A stretch of 64,000 nt of DNA, taken from Paraniabella hibiscisoli (lineage in GTDB: Bacteria > Bacteroidota > Bacteroidia > Chitinophagales > Chitinophagaceae). Both the position numbers and the translations under genes were made by a program. The notes below the pieces were generated by a model, which saw only the letters and a program-made list of their open reading frames with translations, ran no database searches and was not told where the DNA came from. The stretch is taken from positions 4,526,001-4,590,000 of the forward strand of contig NZ_JAKWBK010000001.1 in NCBI RefSeq assembly GCF_022512515.1. The letters are read 5' to 3'. Position 1 is the first letter of the stretch. Each line of letters starts with the position of its first letter. Positions 2,259 through 64,000 of the stretch are shown piece after piece.

Positions 2259-3149
2259 CTATTCGAGGCTTTTTATTACTTCATCATATAAAGCATGGGT
2301 AAGACCATCAGCCAATCCTATTTTAGGAACCAGTATTTCTTCTGCGCCGCCCCATTTTAATACATTGATGTAAATAAGCAGGGCGGGAATGATTACATCG
2401 GCACGGTCCTCGCGTAGCTTATAAGCGCTCATGCGTTCCTGGAGGTTGAGGCTGCTCATTTCTTTATAGAAATCGCGTAGTAGCATCAAAGGCAATGGGC
2501 GGCCTTCTTTTCTTTTGGAAAGTGAAAATACCTTATTAATATTACCGCCGCTACCAATTCCCATAACGCTCCTGGCGTCCTTTACCTGGGCTTTTATTGT
2601 TTCTTTCATTTCCTCCCACTGCTCTTCCTTTACCTGCTGTTTTAAAAGACGAATGGTACCGATATTAAAAGATTGTTTAAAGATCACTTTCTCATTAAGA
2701 AAAAATGTAATTTCTGTACTACCACCACCTACATCAATATAAAGGTAAAGTACATCTTTCTCCAATCCTTCCGCTATATGTGTTTCATAAATCAGCGCAG
2801 CTTCTATATCGCCCGAAATAATTTCTATATCAATTCCGGTTTCCTTTTTTACTCTATTTATGATCTCTTTGGAGTTCCGTGCGTCTCTCATGGCCGAAGT
2901 AGCACAGGCTTTCAGGTGCTTTATATCATAAGCGTCCAGTAAATTCCGGTAGGCTTTCATGGTTGAGATAAGTCTACCGGCCCTTTCGTCTGATATTTCG
3001 CCTGTTTCAAATACATCAAAGCCAAGGCGAAGGGGCACACGTATGAGGTTCGATTTTATAAATTCGGGCTGCTTTCTTTTGCTATGAAATACATCTGTGA
3101 TCAATAATCTTGCTGCGTTACTTCCTATATCGATGGCTGCCAGTTTCAT
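2259..3149 (-). CDS. Exopolyphosphatase / GppA family phosphatase
   Basis: Member of the Ppx/GppA actin-like phosphatase family, which removes terminal phosphate from polyphosphate or pppGpp. 296 residues, equal to the catalytic core without the C-terminal HD extension of long E. coli-type enzymes. Phosphate-binding segments are visible as AAIDIGSNAARLL at the N-terminus and YIDVGGGSTEI near residue 140. It lies 108 bp downstream of ppk1 on the same strand, which favours polyphosphate as substrate; pppGpp hydrolysis remains possible. Confidence 0.92.
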   Translation of the reverse strand: MKLAAIDIGSNAARLLITDVFHSKRKQPEFIKSNLIRVPLRLGFDVFETGEISDERAGRLISTMKAYRNLLDAYDIKHLKACATSAMRDARNSKEIINRVKKETGIDIEIISGDIEAALIYETHIAEGLEKDVLYLYIDVGGGSTEITFFLNEKVIFKQSFNIGTIRLLKQQVKEEQWEEMKETIKAQVKDARSVMGIGSGGNINKVFSLSKRKEGRPLPLMLLRDFYKEMSSLNLQERMSAYKLREDRADVIIPALLIYINVLKWGGAEEILVPKIGLADGLTHALYDEVIKSLE

Positions 3150-3257
3150 CCGTTCATCATTTATAAATTATAGCCTTTTAAATAGACCGGCATACCAAAG
3201 TATCCCTATCATTTACTCAAAAATAGGAATATCTCAGTTTGCTTGATGCTGCAAATA

Positions 3258-5314
3258 TCAGTAAGATTTATTAGCAAGGTAATTGTAAATTTCTTCCTGT
3301 GATCTTACTTCGTCTTTGTTTTTCCTTTTAACGTACTCATTATCGAGTTCATTATTCAAAATCCTTGCCTTAGTATTGTCTTTGAGCTGAATATTCAGAA
3401 TATCGATCAATTCCTGTTTCAGGTCCTCGTTTTTAATAGGGCAGGTGGCTTCTACCCGATGCTCAATATTGCGGATCATCCAGTCTGCAGAAGAGATGTA
3501 CACTTTCTGATCTCCGCGGTTATGAAATACCCAAACCCGGGCATGTTCGAGGTATTCGTCTATAATGCTGATAGCTTTTATGGGCGTTTTAAACTTCTTA
3601 CTTTCCGATTGCATACAAAAGATACCTCTCACAATCAACTTGATCACAACGCCTGCCTTGGCCGCCTCGGTTAATTTTTCAATCAACTTAGCATCTGCCA
3701 TGGAGTTCATTTTGAGGATGATTTCTGCAGGATGTCCTTTACGCGCCGCAGCTACTTCTGCATCAATCAGCTTATTTAGCTCGGTCCGTATAAATCCAGG
3801 ACTGGGAACTAAGGTCCGGCATTTTTCGAGGAAATGAAATCCGGTTTCGGGTTTCTCCAGGAAATTAAAAATACGGTTAACATCTGCCATGATAAATCTG
3901 TTGGAGGTCAACAAGCAATGATCTCCGTATAACCTCGCCGTTTTTTCATTTACATTGCCCGTACTTACAAAACCATGGTAATGTGTTTTACCCTTAATAC
4001 GCTTCTTGATTACGCAGATCTTGGCATGCACTTTCATATCCTGTATACCCGTCAATACTTTTGCGCCTACGTCTAAAAGCACCTGTTGCCACTGCAGGTT
4101 GGCTTCTTCATCAAAACGAGCTTTTAGCTCCATCATCACCGTTACCTCTTTTCCATTGCGAACGGCATTCACCAGTGCATTAACAATTTTAGATTGTGAA
4201 GCGAGGCGGTAACAGGCTATTTTAATAGAAACCACGTCGGGGTCAAAGGCAGCTTCCCTGATCATATCAACAACGGGAGTGAAGCTGTGATAGGGAAAAT
4301 TCAACAATACATCCCGCTTCATCAGCACGTCTCCAACACGCTCATCTTGCAATACAGGGTGAGTGAAGGGTTGTTTGCGCTTTGCTTTATAAGTAAAGAC
4401 CTGGGATGGGAAATCCATAAAATGCCTGAAATTGTGGATGCTTCCTCCGGGCATCAGGTTATCTTTTTGGTTAAACCCAGCCTGGCCAGCAGGTACTCCA
4501 AAAATCCCGGATCCATATTTTCATCGTAAGCGAGGCGAATAGGCTTACCTTTTTTGCGATTTCTCAGCCCTTTTTCCAGTTTCTGTATAATAGTAGTAGT
4601 ATCGGAATTGTCGATATCTAATTCAGCATCCCTGGTAAACTTAAAAATATGCGCCTGAAACTCATCGTACCCCATAAAGCTAAAGATATCAGGCAGGTTA
4701 AACTTGATGGCATCTTCCAGCAGCATGATGTCATGCGTACCTTCTTTTGAGGGTAATACAATGAAACGGCTGCCGACTGCGGTAACCGGTACTTCTATAA
4801 TAGCATATTTACGGTCGGCTTTATCTGAGCTTTTAGACATAACCACCCCAAGGAAAATAGATTTATCTCTCAGGTTGGGGAATTTTTTAATATTCTCCAC
4901 CATGAGCGGCACTATGTTAGCGCTTACCTCGTTATCAAAAAAGTCTAAAATGAATTTTTTCTGTTCGGAATTCAGTTGTTTGTCGTTCTTAAGGAAAATG
5001 TTCTGGTTATTCATTTCCGTTAACACTTCAGCCCATACCCGTTCAAAGGCGGCCTGGTGTTCGGCATTAACACGCTGCACTTCATCCAGGATTTTCTGAG
5101 GATTTTTCTCAGAATGCATCTTCATCTTGGTTTCTATTTGTAACATCCTTTTAAGTGATGCTACACGCACGCGAAAGAATTCATCCCGGTTATTGGAAAA
5201 AATGCCGAGAAACTTAACCCGCTCTCTTAAAGGCACGGTATGATCCGATGCTTCCTGCAAAACTCTTTCATTAAACGATAGCCAGCTGATATCTCTTGGA
5301 ATAAGTTTCAACAT
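3258..5314 (-). CDS. ppk1: Polyphosphate kinase 1 (frame broken once)
   Basis: Makes polyphosphate reversibly from ATP through a phosphohistidine intermediate. The two parts read as one 685-residue protein, normal PPK1 length: N-terminal domain beginning PRDISWLSFNERVL, head domain, then catalytic PLD-like domains with KVHAKICVI (phosphohistidine region) and HGFVSTGNVNEKTA. The frame breaks at about 4458-4470, in a run of five A on the coding strand after GLTK; a sixth A restores KKDNLMPGG, the expected family join. Because the premature TGA overlaps an ATG as TGATG, the second half could be mistaken for a coupled gene, but it starts mid-domain. Likely co-transcribed with ppx. Confidence 0.93.
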
Positions 5315-61924: not shown

Positions 61925-62593
61925 CTATTTTTTCAATTTATCTTTAAAAGCGATCTTAAATTTATCTACTTTAGGCCTGATCACCACCTTACAATAGGGA
62001 TTCTTGTTTTCGTTGCCATTAAAATAACCCTGGTGATAATCTTCAGCCGCATAAAAATGGCGAAACGGTTTTATCTCAGTTACTATCGGATCATTAAACG
62101 CGCCGCTTTTGTCCAATGCTGTTTTGTAGTAGTTGGCTTTTTCTTTCTGGTTATCATTGTGATAATAAACGCCACTGCGGTATTGGGTGCCTACATCATT
62201 CCCCTGGCGGTTTAACGTGGTAGGATCGTGGGTCTTCCAGAAAATCTCTAATAGCTCATCAAAAGAAACTATTGCAGGGTCGTAAACAATTTGTAGTGCT
62301 TCCGCAAAGCCGGTATTGCCTGAGCATACTTCTTCGTAAGTTGGATTTTTTGTATCACCATCTGTATAACCACTGGTTACTTTCTCCACTCCATTCACAT
62401 CCTGAAAAATGGCTTCTGTACACCAAAAACAGCCGTTAGCAAAAGTGGCTGTGTCTTTCTTATTTTCCATTGTTGATTTTTTATTTTCGGGGCCGGTAAA
62501 TTGAACGGACTCCAATTTACTGTTCTTCTTCTGCGCACAGGCGCTAAAGCCAGTTAAGATAGTCAAAAGAGCCGACAAAAGAATTTTGTGCAT
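61925..62593 (-). CDS. msrA: Peptide-methionine (S)-S-oxide reductase, lipoprotein form
   Basis: Reduces methionine-S-sulfoxide in proteins. 222 residues. N-terminal lipobox GFSAC (Cys19) shows it is exported and lipid-anchored, unlike cytoplasmic MsrA. Catalytic motif GCFWCTEAIFQDVNGVEKV, plus YDPAIVSFDELLEIFWKTHDPT, GTQYRSGVYYHND and EDYHQGYF. A late Cys near residue 205 (NPYCKVVI) may resolve the sulfenic acid. No msrB adjacent. Confidence 0.95.
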   Translation of the reverse strand: MHKILLSALLTILTGFSACAQKKNSKLESVQFTGPENKKSTMENKKDTATFANGCFWCTEAIFQDVNGVEKVTSGYTDGDTKNPTYEEVCSGNTGFAEALQIVYDPAIVSFDELLEIFWKTHDPTTLNRQGNDVGTQYRSGVYYHNDNQKEKANYYKTALDKSGAFNDPIVTEIKPFRHFYAAEDYHQGYFNGNENKNPYCKVVIRPKVDKFKIAFKDKLKK

Positions 62594-62742: not shown

Positions 62743-63144
62743 TTATTGAATGGGTTGTTTAAGGTCCAGCACCGGCACCAGCCCCTTGGTAGGTAAATAA
62801 ATAATCTGCGGTAAACTACCTTTATCAGCAATTTTCTCCAGTGTTCTAATGAATAGATACTGGTTATAGGTTTCGTTAAGCGTGCCGTTCTCCACCTTCA
62901 TCGCTTCCGCCATACCCCGGGCGCGCTCAATTTCTGCCTGGGCATTGAGCTTTTCAGCCTCCAGCCGGGCCTTAGCTTCTTCTACTAATATGCGCCGGTT
63001 TTGCTCGGCTTTTGCCATTTCAGCTTTACCGGCCATTTCCTGCTGCCATACCTTATATCTTGGAATACCAAACATCAATGCTACTATAACAATTACCAAT
63101 ATTAGTATTGCAAATGTTACCAGGGTTCCAATGTTTTTGATCAT
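62743..63144 (-). CDS. Membrane protein resembling the tail of an SPFH protein
   Basis: 133 residues: N-terminal transmembrane helix (residues 9-29), an alanine/lysine/glutamate-rich coiled-coil of about 55 residues (EMAKAEQNRRILVEEAKARL, NAQAEIERARGMAEAMKV), then YNQYLFIRTLEKIADKG and IIYLPTKGLVPV. The coiled coil plus the IIYLPT end look like the C-terminal part of stomatin/prohibitin proteins, but the SPFH domain itself is missing. Short leader from a promoter at 63159. Confidence 0.65.
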   Translation of the reverse strand: MIKNIGTLVTFAILILVIVIVALMFGIPRYKVWQQEMAGKAEMAKAEQNRRILVEEAKARLEAEKLNAQAEIERARGMAEAMKVENGTLNETYNQYLFIRTLEKIADKGSLPQIIYLPTKGLVPVLDLKQPIQ

Positions 63145-63196: not shown

Positions 63197-63573
63197 AATG
63201 GAAAGGGTGTATTTCAAATTTTCGCTAAAGTCATGACGTTCGAAGTGGAGCGCCTCGGAAATAGTAGAGATTTCCTCGGGCGGATGAATCATTAATATAT
63301 CGCTGTGATGTAGCTCTACCTCCTTGTGATTATTGTTCTACTAAAATATCGCAGCTATGCTGCTTTTATTGTTTTGATCATTGCCGCATAGCGGCATCGT
63401 ATTAATAGCTGCCATAATAATTCCTCAGTTATCTGAGCTGCGTAGCAGTGATATATTCTGTTTCATACAAAGAGGAATTGACGCGATCGCCCTGGAGATT
63501 TCCCGACAGGCTCAAAGGGATCTACAAAAGGAACTATAGCATAAGCGAAAATTTGAAATGCGCCCAATGGAAA
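63197..63573. mobile_element. MITE-like element with flanking 8-bp direct repeats
   Basis: A 361-bp segment (63205-63565) bounded by 22-bp inverted repeats that match at 20 positions (core ATTTCAAATTTTCGCT; outer GGGTGT versus GGGCGC). It is flanked exactly by AATGGAAA on both sides (63197-63204 and 63566-63573), as expected for a target-site duplication. Inside, 63294-63457 is an imperfect palindrome whose centre is TGATCA near 63375, with nested GCAGCTATGCTGC-type repeats. No ORF of transposase size. Family of the parent element is unknown; 8-bp duplications and GGG ends suit several families. Confidence 0.75.
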
Positions 63574-63741: not shown

Positions 63742-64000
63742 ATGCGTTTTACGGTAATAATACAGGATCCTTTCAAACAAACCGAGCAAACCCATTCCTC
63801 TCTTTCGGGTGAAGAAGCCGGGCAGCTCTTTCAACAGATTGATTGGGCCCAATTGGAAAAGGCTGTGTATGACCGGCTGGAAGAAGTGGTGCACCATTTT
63901 TATTTTTACGAGATCAGCCAGGAGGCTAATGGCGAAAAACGAACCTTAACCATCAGCCCAGGATTGTTACCGGAAGACGATATGCCCGCAACCCGACCCG
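63742..64000 (+). CDS. Unrecognised protein, 3' end outside window
   Basis: First 86 codons are open: MRFTVIIQDPFKQTEQ, then LEKAVYDRLEEVVHHFYFYE and TLTISPGLLPEDDMP. No signal peptide, amphipathic helix near residue 45, otherwise unremarkable. The start is supported by the promoter box just upstream. Family not recognised from this part. Confidence 0.55.
   Translation, partial: MRFTVIIQDPFKQTEQTHSSLSGEEAGQLFQQIDWAQLEKAVYDRLEEVVHHFYFYEISQEANGEKRTLTISPGLLPEDDMPATRP

Follow-up and report, generated by a model that had tools for sequence, protein, structure and literature searches.

Genomic setting and anatomy of the element

The window, that is, the whole 64,000-nucleotide stretch of Paraniabella hibiscisoli DNA analysed here, carries an element of 361 bp (63205-63565) between two divergent open reading frames (ORFs), one on the minus strand at 62743-63144 and one on the plus strand that begins at 63742 and runs off the window. 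Further to the left, an ORF at 61925-62593 contains the string GCFWCTEAIF and presumably encodes methionine sulfoxide reductase A. The 22-bp inverted ends of the element pair at 20 of 22 positions (91% complementarity), an exact 8-bp duplication of AATGGAAA brackets it, and no ORF of at least 60 aa was found within 63205-63565. The first-pass annotation had noted these three features and read an insertion from the first two, and all of them were confirmed. The features are as follows.

63197-63204, no strand: left target-site duplication AATGGAAA, equal to the right copy at 8/8 bases
63205-63226, plus strand: left terminal inverted repeat GGGTGTATTTCAAATTTTCGCT; the same ends, with at most one mismatch to a 21-bp pattern, occur on 1.26-kb ISKra4-like elements of relatives
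63227-63291, plus strand: left subterminal stretch, from the alignment; 6 of 7 aligned copies of the congener G004 have an extra GC-rich stretch here, which copies of the own genome (G000) lack
63292-63314, plus strand: REP-like unit 1, two mismatches to TTAATATATCGCNGCNNNGCNGC
63341-63363, plus strand: REP-like unit 2, two mismatches; 49 bp after unit 1, overlapping a terminator-like hairpin
63383-63405, minus strand: REP-like unit 3, inverted, four mismatches and the weakest of the four; placed by reading the sequence and by its counterpart in a sister copy (L146:3118)
63437-63459, minus strand: REP-like unit 4, inverted, three mismatches
63294-63457, no strand: nested palindromic core, with units 1 and 4 pairing to close it
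63544-63565, minus strand: right terminal inverted repeat, reading GGGCGCATTTCAAATTTTCGCT on the minus strand
63566-63573, no strand: right target-site duplication AATGGAAA, equal to the left copy at 8/8 bases

Folding of the element and its core

The whole 361 nt folds at -122.5 kcal/mol (z -5.7), a value equalled by 0 of 100 shuffles. The core alone (63294-63457) gives z -5.1 as RNA, with 0 of 200 shuffles as good, and z -2.5 as DNA, with 3 of 200 as good. The strong fold of the nested palindrome described earlier was therefore upheld, but its continuity was not, as 22 outer pairs close the core and smaller hairpins lie inside it instead of one unbroken 164-bp palindrome. A repeat search of the window element at default settings returned the terminal repeats only. 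Among 15 aligned copies, a compensatory change was seen at 1 of 74 consensus pairs, that pair being outside the core, and covariation support for the fold was absent (covariation term +2.1); since compensatory change is confined to that one pair, no conserved RNA is claimed and these data do not support selection on the fold. An explanation of the element as a member of a known RNA family was set aside, the best and only match in the Rfam search being PsrR1 at 21.6 bits, far below its gathering threshold of 42.

Copies, duplications and an empty site

Eight full copies of the element are present in the own genome, and all 15 matches of an end search with up to three mismatches belong to these copies. 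The congener G004 contributes seven copies to an alignment of 15 rows, from which its copies at 527612-528285 (L127) were left out. In a fixed 8-bp register, 9 of the 15 copies have at least 6/8 duplication bases equal, five of them at 8/8; the remaining six (L004, L006, L036, L038, L040, L041) fall below 6/8. Shifting the register fits L004 at 8/9 bases (9 bp), L038 and L040 at 7/7 and L036 at 6/7 (7 bp), while L006 and L041 give no fit in a fixed register.

An empty site was sought for the window copy and for its sisters. It was obtained for sister copy L002, whose matched flanks are separated by 37 bases in G004 and 26 bases in a second congener, G003, versus about 400 bases where the element is present; the L002 flanks, when joined with one duplication, align at the empty site nearly without gaps, and the own duplication of L002 is imperfect (6/8). 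For the window copy a clean empty site was not found, as synteny is lost to the left and to the right of it: G003 and G007 retain the left gene, and a relative of the right gene is found in G004. By ORF calling, 0 of the 15 aligned copies lie inside an ORF of at least 80 aa, with L002, L034 and L041 touching ORF ends by 7 to 23 bases, and the ORFs flanking the copies vary in length and orientation from copy to copy.

Some copies have departed from the common form. In L027, L031, L034, L036, L038 and L041, the additional GC-rich sequence (GCCCGCC..GGACGGGCAGGGACGGG), which measures up to about 47 bp, lies near element position 42, in keeping with its distribution over 6 of the 7 aligned G004 copies and its absence from G000 copies. 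Two head-to-tail copies about 366 bp apart, each with a left end, are found at L127:2612-3290 (G004:C1:527612-528285), and the part inspected showed no right end. A decayed relative comprising the core only lies at G000:C1:2472109-2472206 (L009 / L128), with no ISKra4-type ends seen around it.

The family thus presents itself as a MITE, being short, dispersed in copies, bounded by terminal inverted repeats and duplications and devoid of a transposase ORF, with an empty site for sister copy L002 and autonomous elements with the same ends in relatives. The earlier proposal of a non-autonomous transposable element is supported by precisely these observations: multiple copies, duplications, one empty site and autonomous relatives. 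The second copies and full-length relatives that this proposal called for were both found, namely the eight copies in G000, the seven aligned in G004 and relatives of 1,261-1,264 bp.

Terminal repeats and ISKra4-like autonomous relatives

A search of 394 genomes from the family found the ends, with at most one mismatch, in 47 of them, spread over 21 of 101 genera, and, among the matches listed, the named records bearing them include Terrimonas, Niabella, Ferruginibacter, Sediminibacterium, a Pedobacter and Chitinophagaceae MAGs. Paired ends enclose a transposase in L063 (1,261 bp, genome G250) and L068 (1,264 bp, genome G209); the duplication is 8/8 for L068 and 4/8 only for L063. A named record, L203, supplies a third autonomous element of 1,263 bp with the same ends and an 8/8 duplication, and another named record, L186, agrees with L068 in both length and duplication and is probably that element again.

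Two of these three transposases, those of L063 and L068, were tested against family models. For both, the top NCBIfam match was NF033572 ISKra4 (E 7e-58 for L063 and 1e-50 for L068), with scores of 196.6 and 172.8 bits that lie below the NCBIfam cut-off of 205. No NCBIfam model of ISL3, IS6 or IS1595 matched either transposase at E 0.001, and one of the two gave a weak match to Pfam DDE_Tnp_ISL3 (E 1.2e-5, 25.7 bits, cut-off 23). The affiliation with ISL3, IS6 or IS1595 that had been conjectured from the duplication length was accordingly not supported, the two tested transposases being ISKra4-like. What is shared with the ISKra4 family (p-MULT 4; ISMich2, ISKra4 and ISAzba1 groups), as characterised in the pertinent sections of PMC3942029, is the transposase homology of the autonomous relatives and the terminal inverted repeats; unlike that family, the window element has no transposase, and the tested autonomous relatives score below the NCBIfam cut-off.

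In all three autonomous elements read (L063, L068, L203), a short first ORF and a long second one overlap, the second being in the +1 (or -2) frame; the overlap in L068 includes a run of nine A. A transposase over two overlapping frames is likewise described for the ISMich2 group in the corresponding section of PMC3942029, where the frameshift is -1, unlike the +1 (or -2) arrangement of L063, L068 and L203. By eye, the MITE has little in common with the autonomous elements beyond the ends.

Matches to the ISKra4 model were obtained in 6 of 8 genomes tested. None was found in G000, the assembly of which is rated 83% complete, or in G004, and for this reason we infer the helper transposase from relatives. 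The search for an autonomous copy with the same ends consequently succeeded in relatives (L063, L068, L203, and fragments in G014) and gave none in the own genome. As the ISKra4 model has no match there, the family is apparently immobile at present and, in an assembly that is 83% complete, looks stranded. In G014, of the same genus, ISKra4-model fragments have an exact 21-bp end beside them (L086, L087). This genome also holds full-length ISKra4-like elements of 1,293 bp (L077, L082, L084) whose ends have diverged (GGGTGTATGACAAATCT..) and which are perhaps a sister IS family.

REP-like units and the Y1 transposase

The core is composed of four 23-bp units in the order forward, forward, inverted, inverted, each built of a fixed head TTAATATWTC and a stem GCNGC-NNN-GCNGC. 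The unit pattern matches three times in the window (units 1, 2 and 4) against 0.04 expected in shuffles. In G000 it matches 51 times at up to three mismatches versus 4 for the reversed control, and 33 times at up to two mismatches versus 3. Sixteen of these 33 units belong to the eight MITE copies; the other 17, including one in a decayed relative of the element, lie outside them. The stem position N12-N20 is complementary in 27 of 28 distinct unit strings from the MITE and in 34 of 38 from other places. The remark of the first-pass annotation that transposition needs do not explain the core was borne out insofar as the core is a separate REP-like repeat; the part in transcription or at replication forks that it also suggested is at most a candidate function.

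Free units form regular 25/50-bp arrays (L119, L120), one of which starts, in G000, within a few bases of a gene for a Y1 transposase (PF01797; G000:C1:18356-18811). The orthologue of this gene has units on one side in G004 and on both sides in G001, a genome in which a second Y1 gene (L157) also has a variant unit at a distance of 116 bp. Across 17 genomes of the genus, the own included, 33 units were counted in G000, 33 in G004 and 17 in G001, and 0 to 5 in the other 14, six of which have 3-5 matches to the pattern. A homologue of the Y1 protein at 75% identity or more exists in the same three of the 17 genomes only, the next best being 59% identical. Against this association, a pair of neighbouring units with 0 and 1 mismatches is present in G003 (72% complete), where the closest Y1 homologue found reaches 54% identity. 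G000, G001 and G004 may be close relatives, so their co-occurrence of units and gene does not count as three independent events. A scan of a contig collection with the core pattern returned nothing, and records near the own genome may be absent from that collection.

In the Y1 proteins linked to the arrays, DHVH, WQ and Y---Q--HH are present, the last being the signature of subclass 1.2, which the relevant part of PMC6006769 describes as generally free of the typical terminal IS200 secondary structures. When the 350-bp flanks of 26 Y1 genes were inspected, four of the genes were the unit-bearing ones, whose 5-bp stems lie outside the criterion used, and, in an uncontrolled listing, 5 of the 22 others (L311, L316, L318, L150, L154) had at least two similar hairpins with stems of at least seven pairs. 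The stem sequence of these hairpin pairs, which lie beside other Y1 genes of the genus, differs from gene to gene, as if each Y1 lineage had its own REP.

The units resemble the REP sequences and BIMEs of RAYT (Y1) systems, in the respects that the consulted sections of PMC6006769, PMC3733652 and PMC2817692 treat, in being short palindromes with a fixed non-palindromic head that are repeated in the genome, clustered in both orientations and present beside a Y1 gene with copies elsewhere. Unlike the canonical REP, they have no GTAG or CGTC tag (described in part of PMC3733652), the head being TTAATATWTCGC, and their copy number is low: 33 units in G000, set against more than 100 in the relevant passage of PMC2817692. 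Because the tag and the high copy number are missing, the unit is called REP-like.

At L146:2433-2870 and 2937-3300, MITE copy L003 lies about 70 bp from a broken Y1 gene of another lineage. This locus was considered as the birthplace of the MITE family and discarded, because the broken gene shares no more than 30-31% identity with the Y1 lineage linked to the arrays.

Short elements with these ends in other genera

At least 113 named stretches hold the ends; requiring two ends and a duplication of at least 6/8 kept 44 elements in 42 loci and dropped 71 loci. Among the matches listed, 42 of the 44 delimited elements are short (72-413 bp) and two are autonomous, the latter being left out of the fold test. 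The short interiors, again among the matches listed, have a mean z of -3.9, with 30 of 42 below -2, compared with a mean of -0.2 and 3 of 79 below -2 for flank controls of equal length. These 42 interiors group into 12 families, seven with a median below -2 and some not palindromic (medians 0.0 and -0.6), always among the matches listed. Palindromic cargo therefore looks recurrent among elements with these ends, but the link of a palindromic core with the Y1 system is shown for the genus of the window only.

In genus g28, 16 loci of a hairpin CCGGTCGGTGNNNCACCGACCGG were kept out of 62 places, with MITE-type ends allowed up to six mismatches. In 15 of the 16 loci checked, one or more MITE-type ends are found no further than 150 bp from the hairpin, in one of these loci only an end with five mismatches, and therefore an origin from free REPs is not supported in g28. 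The generalisation that all such MITEs carry free REPs was dropped on this result.

Transcription signals

Between 63100 and 63760, four terminator-like sites on three stems were found, as opposed to 0.5 in shuffles, and the same scan found 0 promoters of the sigma-70 type versus 2.0 in shuffles. With hairpins formed by the core on both strands and terminator-like sites that exceed expectation in this way, mild bidirectional attenuation of transcription would be the likeliest main effect of the element at present.

Discussion

The element of the window is very probably a MITE that was moved in trans by an ISKra4-like DDE transposase and whose interior derives from, or shares ancestry with, the REP-like family flanking a Y1 gene. 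The observed basis of this reading comprises the ends, the duplications, the copy number, the empty site of L002, the autonomous relatives, the free units, and the adjacency and co-occurrence of units with Y1. Mechanistically, an ISKra4-like (p-MULT 4) DDE transposase would recognise the 22-bp ends, generate 8-bp duplications and move the element in trans, the element being its putative passive substrate, with past mobilisation judged from the relatives. The interior would have been acquired from, or have common ancestry with, the REP-like family of the same genus that flanks the Y1/HUH transposase gene, and its two direct and two inverted units would let the core fold back as RNA or as extruded DNA. 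Entry of the REP-like units into an ISKra4-ended element is favoured over the reverse, because similar ends are accompanied by changing interiors in other genera, and would be the probable direction.

A simpler account would make the element an ordinary ISKra4-type MITE with a core that is nothing but its own fold-back interior, the remaining units being MITE debris with no Y1 link. The g28 hairpin, a different MITE-interior hairpin within 150 bp of a MITE-type end in 15 of 16 loci, and the one decayed core-only relative in G000 (L009) fit such an account, yet debris would hardly be arranged in regular 25/50-bp arrays (L119, L120), stand a few bases from the Y1 gene in both G000 and G004, flank Y1 on both sides in G001 and track the Y1 lineage in number across 17 genomes. 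Moreover, G001 has 17 units with only two MITE matches of about 30 bases and no end at one mismatch or fewer, and the debris account is considered improbable. Membership of ISL3, IS6 or IS1595, families to which 8-bp duplications would also point, is hardly credible: the weak DDE_Tnp_ISL3 match of one tested transposase (E 1.2e-5) is outweighed by NF033572 ISKra4 as the top match of both and by the lack of any model of those families at E 0.001.

It is also unlikely that the element is a selected regulatory or non-coding RNA element, such as a bidirectional terminator or mRNA stabiliser, kept for the host and with transposition only in its past. The strong RNA fold, the excess of terminator-like sites (four, on three stems, where 0.5 would be expected) and the location of 0 of 15 aligned copies inside an ORF of at least 80 aa agree with such a role, but there is almost no compensatory change (1 of 74 pairs), the ORFs beside the copies vary in length and orientation, the sole Rfam match (PsrR1, 21.6 of 42 bits) is far below gathering, and two congeners do without the insertion at the L002 site. 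The preferred reading, of an ISKra4-mobilised MITE with a Y1-related interior, could be extended into a doubtful further proposal, namely that ISKra4-like ends repeatedly pick up Y1 REP-type palindromes and that the hybrid is a joint vehicle from which both repeat systems gain. If so, the DDE system would spread palindromes to new sites as double-stranded DNA, and the palindromes would supply Y1 substrates or buffer transcription.

The nearest precedent is provided by A. variabilis and H. neapolitanus, in which REP dimers lie inside long palindromes according to the relevant passages of PMC3733652 and REP units are likewise nested in a longer inverted repeat. Those passages give the outer palindrome no transposase family, duplication or autonomous partner, whereas here the ends tie to an ISKra4-like element and 8-bp duplications are present. 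A literature search on MITEs, REP/RAYT and ISKra4 in Bacteroidetes/Chitinophagaceae yielded, judged by titles, none on such a hybrid in this family.

Overall, sequence comparison indicates that one element has the ends of a DDE family and a core drawn from repeats associated with Y1. Two repeat systems that are usually kept apart, DDE-transposon MITEs and Y1 REP palindromes, would thereby be joined in one clear insertion with autonomous relatives, and a subclass-1.2-like Y1 gene gains a candidate substrate in a subclass that, according to the published survey, generally lacks typical structures.
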